Shown here one piece after another: positions 7,795 to 13,040 of a stretch of 64,000 nucleotides of DNA (its first letter is position 1; every line of letters begins with the position of its first letter). The stretch is from Sinorhizobium garamanticum (lineage in GTDB: Bacteria > Pseudomonadota > Alphaproteobacteria > Rhizobiales > Rhizobiaceae). The notes beneath the pieces were generated by a model. That model was not told where the DNA came from, did no database searches, and was given only the letters and a program-made list of their open reading frames with translations. The position numbers and the translations under genes are program-made. The stretch lies in the NCBI RefSeq assembly GCF_029892065.1, contig NZ_CP120373.1, forward strand, positions 4,037,001 to 4,101,000. The letters are read 5' to 3'.

Positions 7795-7797
<3 letters not shown>
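7741..7797. repeat. Intergenic mosaic repeat, family A, copy 2
   Basis: Contains TTCCGGGCGGAAAACCGCGC, then ACGCTTTTCCTCATCCCGCT, closely matching copies at 3139 and 12271. Its last bases include the complement of the dnaE1 stop codon (7795-7797). Confidence 0.75.
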
Positions 7798-11289
<3,492 letters not shown>

Positions 11290-11447
11290 CGTTACACTCC
11301 GATTCCCGTTCGGAGCAGAGGATATCCCGTTTCCGGTCCTTGATGTCCAGCGCAACGACCGGGACCGCCGTCTTTTTCAACATTGCATCCGAGGTAGCAC
11401 AGATCCGACGCCGCCGCGCCATGCGAAGCCGCGCCGGCGCAGAAGGA

Positions 11448-11534
11448 TCACAATCCGAGCGCAATCACCGAAATGCTGGCGATGAACAGGCTCATGGAGG
11501 CGAAGGCGGCGAGATCACGAACGAAATCAGTCAT
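11448..11534 (-). CDS. 28-residue membrane peptide behind a LexA box (candidate SOS peptide)
   Basis: Too short for ordinary gene calling, but well supported. Minus-strand AAGGAG lies 7 bases before the ATG at 11534, and an open frame of 28 codons ends in TGA. The peptide starts MTDFVRDLAAFASM and continues SLFIASISVIALGL: a short charged N-terminus and one hydrophobic helix of about 18-20 residues. The promoter upstream contains an exact LexA box between a TTGACT -35 and the start codon. Caulobacter SidA, a 29-residue LexA-controlled membrane peptide that blocks division through FtsW, is a similar case in size and control. Homology to SidA is not claimed. It lies 158 bases upstream of dnaE1 on the same strand. 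Confidence 0.72.
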   Translation of the reverse strand: MTDFVRDLAAFASMSLFIASISVIALGL

Positions 11535-11567
11535 TAGATGGCTCCTTTCCGCTATTGTTTTTCTTTT

Positions 11568-11592
11568 GTTCTTTTTTTGTTCCATAGTCAAG
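11568..11592 (-). promoter_or_regulatory. LexA box and -35 of the small-peptide promoter
   Basis: On the minus strand GAAC-AAAAAAA-GAAC (11582-11568) is an exact GAAC-N7-GAAC LexA site. A -35-like CTTGACT (11592-11586) lies just upstream, so LexA would cover the spacer between -35 and -10. The -10 is weak and A-rich. The box ends 33 bases before the ATG at 11534. Confidence 0.82.
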
Positions 11593-11688
11593 TAAGCCTG
11601 CATAAAAGATCCCGCAATTCAAAGGTGATGGTTAACGCGCCTGTGGCTGGGCGCCGTCAGGGTTCGGAGGCCTGGTGCATCGACGTTT

Positions 11689-11703
11689 GTTCCCTTTTTG
11701 TTC
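11689..11703 (+). promoter_or_regulatory. LexA box upstream of the DUF5680 gene
   Basis: GTTC-CCTTTTT-GTTC is an exact match to GTTC-N7-GTTC. It lies 54 bases before the ATG at 11758 and 106 bases from the divergent LexA box at 11568-11582. No convincing -35/-10 pair was assigned. Confidence 0.8.
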
Positions 11704-11757
11704 TTTACAAGCTGGCGATGTTACGGCATCCTCGCTCACGAAAATGGGAGCACGCTC

Positions 11758-12225
11758 ATGTTCAGCATCAAGGAACTCACCGACTTCATCGTCGAGGCAA
11801 AATCGAGGACATATGTCGGCGACGGCGCGGCCCTGCCCGCCTGCAGGCTCGGCTCGCGCGATATCGGTCACCAGCGCGGCGCGTGGCGCTATCTCGACAG
11901 CTATTTTGGCGGAACGGATTTTGCCGGCCAGGAAGCAGTCTGGCATGATGGCAAACCGCGCTGGGCGATGAACTACTTCGGTCGCATTATCCGTCGGGAC
12001 TTGATCGATGCGGAACGAGCCGGCACCGTTATTAAAGCTGCACTACAGACCATGTATCGCGACAAGCGCCATTTCCTCGGCGGCACGGAATATCAGCACG
12101 CCTACGGTTGTTACGTCGACAGCAGCCGCGGCGCGACCGATCATTTTTCCGGACGCGAGGTCATTTTCGTCGATGGCGAAGAGGCCTACGAGCTCGATTA
12201 TCGAGGCGGGCTCATCGTTCCGTGA
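11758..12225 (+). CDS. DUF5680 domain protein, probably SOS-regulated
   Basis: This 155-residue soluble protein starts MFSIKELTDFIVEAK. It carries the conserved segments YLDSYFGGTDFAGQEAVW (about 43-60), WAMNYFGRI and, at the C-terminus, FSGREVIFVDGEEAYELDY, which I recognise as the DUF5680 domain. No catalytic function is known to me for this family. GGGAG lies 7 bases before the ATG at 11758; an upstream start would run into the promoter region. An exact LexA box 54 bases upstream suggests induction by DNA damage, shared with the divergent small-peptide gene. Confidence 0.8.
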   Translation: MFSIKELTDFIVEAKSRTYVGDGAALPACRLGSRDIGHQRGAWRYLDSYFGGTDFAGQEAVWHDGKPRWAMNYFGRIIRRDLIDAERAGTVIKAALQTMYRDKRHFLGGTEYQHAYGCYVDSSRGATDHFSGREVIFVDGEEAYELDYRGGLIVP

Positions 12226-12353: not shown

Positions 12354-13040
12354 CTACTTCAGTTCAACGACCTTCCCATCCTCGATCGTCACACGGCGAT
12401 CCATCAGGGAGGCGAGTTCATGGTTGTGCGTCGCAATCAGTGCGGCAAGGCCCGACTGGCGTGCCAGGGCCTCCATCGCCTCGAAAACATAGCCAGCGGT
12501 CTCGGGATCGAGATTGCCGGTCGGCTCATCAGCCAGGAGAACGAGAGGCGCATTGGCCACGGCGCGGGCGATCGCAACGCGCTGCTGCTCGCCGCCGGAG
12601 AGTTCGCCCGGTCGATGGCTGGCACGGTGGCCGATGCGCATATAATCGAGCAAAGCGGCGGCTCTCTCCGCTGCTTCCGCCTTCGGCAGGCCGGCGATTA
12701 GTTGCGGCATCATGATGTTTTCCAGCGCGGAAAATTCCGGCAGCAGGTGATGGAACTGATAGACGAAGCCGATCTCCTTGCGCCGGATCGCGGTGCGCCG
12801 ATCATCGCTGAGCCCGTTGCAAGCCAAACCGTTCACGACGACTTCGCCCGCGTCCGGATGTTCGAGCAGGCCTGCGACATGCAAGAGCGTCGACTTGCCG
12901 GTTCCCGAAGGCGCCACGAGCGCGACGGTCTCGCCGCTTCGCAGTGTGAAATCGACACCTTTGAGGATCGGCAGGTAGGTTTCACCCTCTCCGTAGTGCC
13001 GCTCGATGCCGGAGAGCTGCAGTGCCACACGCGCATTCAT
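12354..13040 (-). CDS. lolD: Lipoprotein-releasing ABC transporter ATPase
   Basis: This 228-residue ABC ATPase has Walker [10 protein letters not shown] (43-51), signature LSGGEQQR (about 144-151) and Walker [13 protein letters not shown]. LolD powers the LolCDE complex, which extracts mature outer-membrane lipoproteins from the inner membrane and hands them to LolA. It is the last gene of proS-lolCE-lolD, 18 bases after the permease gene. The family and context make it LolD rather than a MacB- or FtsE-type ATPase. Confidence 0.92.

Follow-up and report, generated by a model that had tools for sequence, protein, structure and literature searches.

The closest comparison for the locus described here is offered by Caulobacter crescentus, in which sidA (CCNA_02004; PMC10769358) encodes a 29-amino-acid, SOS-induced inhibitor that is located in the inner membrane and acts on FtsW, FtsI and FtsN (PMC4211646). 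DidA of the same species is likewise a small, single-helix and damage-induced division inhibitor, and it is directed at the same complex (PMC4211646). SOS- or damage-induced small membrane inhibitors were also reported from other bacteria, namely YneA from Bacillus subtilis, SosA from Staphylococcus aureus and ChiZ from Mycobacterium tuberculosis; for the helix of YneA a contact with TM7 of FtsW is supported, and the SidA-FtsW contact comes from an AlphaFold 3 model alone, the confidence of which is not high (PMC13396833). For rhizobia, a limited literature search showed no named SOS division inhibitor, and no paper on a rhizobial sidA was found in a limited search that did not pair sidA with Sinorhizobium.

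Here, we describe a mostly unannotated gene in front of dnaE1 of Sinorhizobium garamanticum. The genus is reflected by two segments on another replicon of this genome, which show 92-93% identity to replicons of S. terangae, S. chiapasense and S. mexicanum. We regard it as likely that this gene is the rhizobial counterpart of sidA, i.e. a probable divergent orthologue, and that its product represents a LexA-switched brake on FtsW/FtsI/FtsN, as is deduced from the situation in Caulobacter.

The locus and its parts

The window, i.e. the whole stretch of 64,000 nucleotides that was analysed, carries on its minus strand an ORF of 28 codons (11448..11534), which begins with an ATG at 11534, ends with its stop codon at 11448 and encodes the SidA-like peptide MTDFVRDLAAFASMSLFIASISVIALGL with a single helix. 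Seven bases 5' of the ATG lies the Shine-Dalgarno sequence AAGGAG (11542..11547), which looks similar in the genus loci inspected. Further upstream on the same strand, it is followed by a LexA box of the form GAAC-N7-GAAC (GAACAAAAAAAGAAC, 11568..11582) and by a -35-like TTGAC that adjoins this box (11587..11591). The arrangement, including the 7-base gap, is exactly the one that the first-pass annotation had read from the sequence. A simple scan of positions 11200-11900 found no consensus sigma-70 promoter, and the TTGAC element gave no match in it.

The gene downstream is dnaE1 for the alpha subunit of DNA polymerase III (7795..11289, minus strand), for which the ATG of MANDQS was picked as the start by eye from homology. 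The claim that the peptide adjoins dnaE1 could be confirmed, since 158 nt separate the peptide stop from this likely ATG at 11289 on the same strand. The peptide is placed between the LexA promoter and dnaE1, and the scan of 11200-11900 found no terminator-like site between the two; therefore, dnaE1 is probably fed by the same transcript as the peptide. On the upstream side, a lolD-like ABC ATPase gene (12354..13040, minus strand) was recognized by eye as the conserved neighbour, and this order matches the annotation of S. meliloti Ak57.

The divergent DUF5680 gene (11758..12225, plus strand) is apparently also LexA-controlled. A second LexA box (GTTCCCTTTTTGTTC, 11689..11703, plus strand) is directed toward it and lies 69 nt upstream of its start. 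GTTC-N7-GTTC occurs 60-70 nt before the DUF5680 gene in 28 of the 29 loci with a matched start, the only exception being L027, in which the gene appears broken. Judging from this conservation, DUF5680 seems to belong to the LexA regulon of rhizobia.

A longer in-frame ORF, of 51 amino acids and starting from 11603, is also present in the window. Since this frame is open for just 34-41 amino acids in 16 of the 32 genus matches, the start that gives 28 residues is the likely one. When the 51-amino-acid ORF was compared with a protein database, 9 proteins were obtained, of which the named ones are all hypothetical. The window peptide itself matched nothing in Pfam at E<=0.1, and the peptide of S. 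meliloti showed a weak DUF5345 match (E 0.021) that is under the cut-off. The best 19-residue hydropathy amounts to 2.23 for the window peptide and to 2.08 for the peptide of C. vibrioides.

Conservation of the reading frame

The peptide is present in 39 of 60 relatives. Within the genus, it was found in 32 of 33 genomes, the own genome included, always with one match per genome; the exception is a genome that is 85% complete. At the level of the family, 160 of 297 genomes gave a match at a permissive E<=5, where the weakest matches may be due to chance. We examined 123 loci in detail (L001-L030 and L061-L153), which represent 122 distinct places, because L063 is the same as L075. Both denominators retain L065, which is a fragment of a longer frame and no relative, as well as L134-L136, which hold a different ORF of 48 amino acids.

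The frame consists of exactly M plus 27 residues plus stop in 106 of the 123 loci. Among the 27 distinct sequences from the genus, pN/pS is 0.127; the value for all 100 distinct 28-codon sequences is 0.42, where synonymous changes are close to saturated. At the first, second and third codon positions, the genus mismatch amounts to 0.08, 0.03 and 0.30, respectively. It is 0.09-0.18 within the frame and 0.08 at the stop codon, and reaches 0.63-0.68 directly after it, i.e. conservation ends at the stop. This mismatch pattern and the pN/pS value are those of a protein-coding gene with the given start and stop, hence the 28-residue peptide is a real gene. The conservation of reading frame and start codon on which the first-pass annotation had made its proposal depend was found in the genus as well as in the family loci, and the Ka/Ks-type check turned out in its favour, too.

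The LexA box

The box alone was rejected as proof, because its counts are little above chance in both the window and the genome. The window contains five matches to GAAC-N7-GAAC compared to 2.3 expected, and 9 of 100 shuffles reach five; genome-wide, 42 matches to GAACN7GAACA compare to 28 for the reversed pattern. The picture given by the peptide loci is a different one. The LexA-type operator that had been claimed for the peptide promoter is conserved, with an exact box at most 120 nt upstream of the peptide in 105 of 123 loci, corresponding to 104 of the 122 distinct places. The controls, the reversed motif and a box in the 120 nt downstream, each gave 0/123. The box is commonly situated at -47 to -53, two boxes exist in 32 loci, and TTGAC directly precedes the first box in all 32 genus loci. 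The 18 loci without an exact box fall into nine dnaE-linked peptides and nine other or prophage-type ORFs. A box with one mismatch is present in all nine of the former (L066, L096, L097, L103, L104, L109, L127, L128, L137) and in none of the latter (L065, L121, L122, L132, L134-L136, L145, L150), and boxes with at most one mismatch were counted in 5 of 123 downstream control stretches.

In the same genome, the 15-mer box of the peptide recurs identically between ssb and uvrA. Other matches precede lexA, a YifB/ComM-type gene, a radical SAM gene of the PA0069 family and an ImuA-like gene, the latter being itself under the cut-off of its model (loci with LexA-type boxes in the window genome: L050, L051, L037, L038, L033). 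Given this association with ssb/uvrA, lexA and the other genes listed, we regard GAAC-N7-GAAC as the LexA motif of this genome. The combination of box, frame and position goes far beyond what chance would produce.

sORF25 of Sinorhizobium meliloti

In a Ribo-seq study on S. meliloti 2011, sORF25 is among the translated sORFs and is placed 'in the 5'-UTR of dnaE1'; uORF-type roles are proposed there for at least some of the sORFs in 5'-UTRs (PMC10117765). The gene table of S. meliloti Ak57 has no entry for the peptide, which lies between an ABC ATPase gene and dnaE. By eye, the SidA-like frame is the sole small ORF with a Shine-Dalgarno sequence after the boxes in this strain, which makes it very likely, by position, that sORF25 as a translated sORF in the dnaE1 5'-UTR (PMC10117765) is the SidA-like peptide. 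Hence, the ribosome footprint that the first-pass annotation had named as a test has very likely already been reported (PMC10117765). Nor is the peptide entirely without precedent, as Caulobacter has the known SidA and sORF25 had been catalogued in S. meliloti (PMC10117765). The terms SidA, LexA and SOS do not occur in the main text of this study (PMC10117765), and we saw no text linking SidA with sORF25 in the literature searched. If sORF25 is this peptide, it was translated in cultures that are not described there as DNA-damaged, which is a point against the reading as an SOS-induced SidA counterpart (PMC10117765).

One observation concerns the Ak57 sequences. CP090106.1 (L460), labelled as plasmid pSymB of S. 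meliloti Ak57, has a size of 3.72 Mb and carries genes for proline--tRNA ligase, a lipoprotein-releasing transporter and dnaE; hence, the label is probably wrong and the record represents the chromosome.

Position next to dnaE

A dnaE match was found downstream of the peptide in 107 of the 123 loci or 106 of the 122 distinct places, a count that includes L065. The 16 loci without such a match comprise eight with peptide and box (L125, L133, L143, L144, L146, L148, L152, L153), for which a downstream stretch of roughly 1.5 kb was checked, five that lack the box as well (L121, L122, L132, L145, L150) and the three with the different ORF (L134-L136). In several of the eight loci the peptide still follows a LolD-like gene, as judged by eye, which suggests a rearrangement between the peptide and dnaE1.

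These data bear on the possibility that the ORF is a regulatory uORF, in which case the translation of a short ORF in the leader would control dnaE1 and the peptide itself would be inert. The lack of a detected terminator-like site between peptide and dnaE1 would fit such a role, as would the location in the dnaE1 5'-UTR of S. meliloti if sORF25 is the peptide (PMC10117765). Nevertheless, we consider a pure uORF improbable, because the residues are conserved while third codon positions drift, the spacing from peptide to dnaE varies widely among the loci, eight loci hold peptide and box although dnaE was not matched within the downstream sequence retrieved, and Rfam gave no match in 11250-11800. 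The function of a leader peptide should be tied to dnaE in cis, and such a tie was not found. As peptide and box persist without dnaE, we rather argue that the peptide acts by itself.

Copies without LexA box

The peptides from the five loci that lack both box and dnaE follow the same pattern and are 29-30 residues long. Family matches of the L121 neighbours are to Erf-like annealing proteins and to exonucleases, and those of the L150 neighbours are to exonucleases. One neighbour of L145 matches a family of unknown function, and the single neighbour tested for L132 had no family match. Relatives, likewise without LexA box and dnaE, also exist on the IMG/VR viral contigs L457-L459, with Erf-like neighbours seen by eye in L457 and L459. 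In searches against named phage records, the L145 peptide had no match, and the sole match of the L121 peptide, to Lu11 with an E of about 3, was judged to be chance. The box-less peptides may be phage-borne division blockers. Furthermore, genome G332 contains three copies (L134, L135, L136) of the short ORF ..MIRDLAALASIGLFLASFYGVSALGSDAVRTARL.. and variants of it, without box or dnaE, which has the same N-terminal pattern as the SidA-like peptide.

Distribution among Alphaproteobacteria

Profile A1 has 34 rows, of which the family of the window supplies 31; the remaining 3 belong to other families within its order, and one of these 3 (L067) is trimmed to an internal ATG. Compared with 385 genomes of the class, it gave a match at E<=1 in 133. 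Four of these loci were read (L154, L163, L164, L182) and the first three were kept; the remaining matches were judged from the table to be noise, with partial cover and many of them within long frames. We also performed a class-wide survey by position from dnaE among genomes outside the family of the window. Besides the window's own genome, 160 class genomes have a dnaE match, of which 109 were taken by score with larger ones preferred; L247, at a contig end, was left out, and 108 dnaE upstream regions remained. They include L228 and L229 from the family f36 and the Caulobacteraceae locus L311, and therefore overlap with the counts for these two families given below.

Within 700 nt upstream of dnaE, a sense box was found in 18 of the 108 regions, compared to 1/108 in each of two reversed-motif controls; the other 90 lack an exact sense box, and exact matches only were counted. 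An opposite-strand box was observed in 9 of the 108 regions. A micro-ORF with one helix follows the sense box in 17 of the 18 loci, against a background of 21/450 at random positions in other loci and of 81/360 in the same loci, the latter being inflated by the peptides themselves. The eighteenth locus, L311, encodes MARWVREMLSLASCGGFVWMAWQAALLAY, which is under the hydropathy threshold. In its family, the Caulobacteraceae, 101 of 119 genomes gave a match at E<=5, and dnaE was matched in all of the 48 distinct loci with full flank, 37 of which contain an exact box (raw counts 49, 49 and 38; L343 is the same as L372, and one locus with a cut flank was dropped). The family f36 shows a match in 37 of 40 genomes, with the box in 25 and a dnaE match in 24 of the 26 full-flank loci after four short-flank loci had been dropped. 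The layout of box, peptide and dnaE recurs in other alphaproteobacterial families. Hence, the view of an exclusively rhizobial peptide has to be abandoned, because f36, Caulobacteraceae and other class genomes share this layout.

Relationship to Caulobacter SidA

When the peptides of the L311 family were compared with named genomes, 80 of 150 relatives were kept, among them Caulobacter, Phenylobacterium and Brevundimonas. In C. vibrioides DSM 9893 the peptide has 29 residues, 35 nt separate its stop codon from the downstream ATG that likely starts dnaE, and it is SidA according to the NCBIfam model NF033228 (72.4 bits at a cut-off of 35). All 15 Caulobacteraceae peptides of alignment A2 match this model at E<=1; among 14 control genomes nine match at all, including C. 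vibrioides, and one is over the cut-off. The locus tags of Caulobacter are in agreement. There, lexA is CC1902 and dnaE is CC1926 (PMC1839093); as lexA is also known as CCNA_01979 (PMC11535069), the offset is 77 and dnaE should be CCNA_02003, next to sidA. From the place of the C. vibrioides SidA at dnaE and from these tags, it follows that the rhizobial peptide occupies the sidA place.

The profiles A1 (34 rows), f36 (16 rows) and A2 (15 rows) were aligned by hhalign, which resulted in gapless alignments with E values of 3.6e-5 for A1-A2, 6.6e-8 for A1-f36 and 5.2e-6 for A2-f36. Column shuffles were as good as the real alignment in 0/300 cases for each profile pair; the best A1-A2 shuffle scored 17.7 compared to 20.0 for the real one. 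The hhalign probability of the direct Rhizobiaceae-Caulobacteraceae pair is 66-72%, its alignment is gapless over columns 1-20, and f36 bridges the two. SidA of C. vibrioides and the window peptide have in register M1, R6, an acidic residue at 7, A10, F/L at 11, S13, a hydrophobic residue at 14 and F17. Taken together with the position, we regard the rhizobial peptide as probably a divergent orthologue of SidA.

NF033228 gave no match at E<=1 with the window and S. meliloti peptides, matched one of the 34 A1 rows (E 0.038) and was over its cut-off in 0/60 relatives. Since the rhizobial peptide thus falls outside NF033228, we name it SidA-like and not SidA. Among four further Caulobacteraceae peptides from the same place, two are also under the cut-off (20.5 bits; the others have 50.1 and 37.5), hence the cut-off marks the sampled branch and not the family. 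In other words, the standard SidA model sees just part of the family. By sequence, no solved structure matched the C. vibrioides peptide.

The first-pass annotation had likened the architecture to both SidA and TisB. The first half of this comparison stands, given the same neighbourhood, the box and the gapless profile homology, whereas TisB is the poorer comparison. TisB of E. coli is a LexA-controlled short membrane peptide and a type I toxin under antisense RNA control. An SOS membrane toxin of this kind would depolarise the membrane and favour persistence without specific division inhibition, and its anatomy, with LexA box, fewer than 30 residues and one helix, is common to the rhizobial peptide. 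However, we give little credence to such a toxin in view of the homology to SidA, which targets FtsW/I/N, and of the position common to both, of the single match per genome in the genus and of the lack of a known RNA family in 11250-11800. Still more doubtful is the possibility that the peptide serves some other membrane complex as a small accessory subunit and merely sits within the SOS regulon, because, although many one-helix proteins of less than 50 residues work in this way, the relationship to SidA and the steady coupling to the LexA box speak against it.

Proposed function and implications

The reading as a SidA counterpart, which we prefer, implies a checkpoint that would work as has been proposed for SidA in Caulobacter (PMC4211646). 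LexA on GAAC-N7-GAAC would keep the promoter off. Upon DNA damage, activated RecA would lead to the cleavage of LexA and the peptide would be made. Its single helix (about residues 8-28) is predicted to insert it into the inner membrane, where it would keep the FtsW/FtsI/FtsN complex inactive, and septation would be delayed until repair. A wider scenario, on which we are evenly divided, sees in SidA no speciality of Caulobacter but the branch studied best so far of a checkpoint peptide that is ancient in Alphaproteobacteria. Its LexA switch would have been wired early to the Pol III gene, one SOS transcript would serve both, and the copies that temperate phages would have acquired beside their recombination genes would be LexA-free and act as division blockers.

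A checkpoint that has so far been known from one group may hence be common to many Alphaproteobacteria, and sORF25 gains a likely function. With a conserved candidate in front of dnaE1, the question of an SOS division inhibitor becomes testable in S. meliloti. Moreover, the wide natural alignment of SidA-type peptides can be used for mapping the contact with FtsW. During bacteroid development, division stops and DNA replication goes on. It is a matter of speculation, but the SidA-like peptide is a candidate in this process.

Comparison with known systems

With TisB of E. coli, the rhizobial peptide has in common the LexA control and the nature of a short membrane peptide, the latter being predicted for the rhizobial one; the antisense RNA control is a feature of TisB itself. 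YneA, SosA and ChiZ resemble it as small membrane inhibitors induced by SOS or damage, and YneA and ChiZ additionally bear LysM domains (PMC13396833). DidA is a different gene, since it has 71 residues, is induced by DriD and is SOS-independent (PMC4211646), whereas the rhizobial peptide has 28 residues and a LexA box. SidA of C. crescentus is the nearest system. The rhizobial peptide differs from it in the C-terminal half, where W19 and Cys22 are missing and little is common after position 18. What unites both is the LexA box, a length of 28-29 residues, one helix and the location on the same strand upstream of dnaE.
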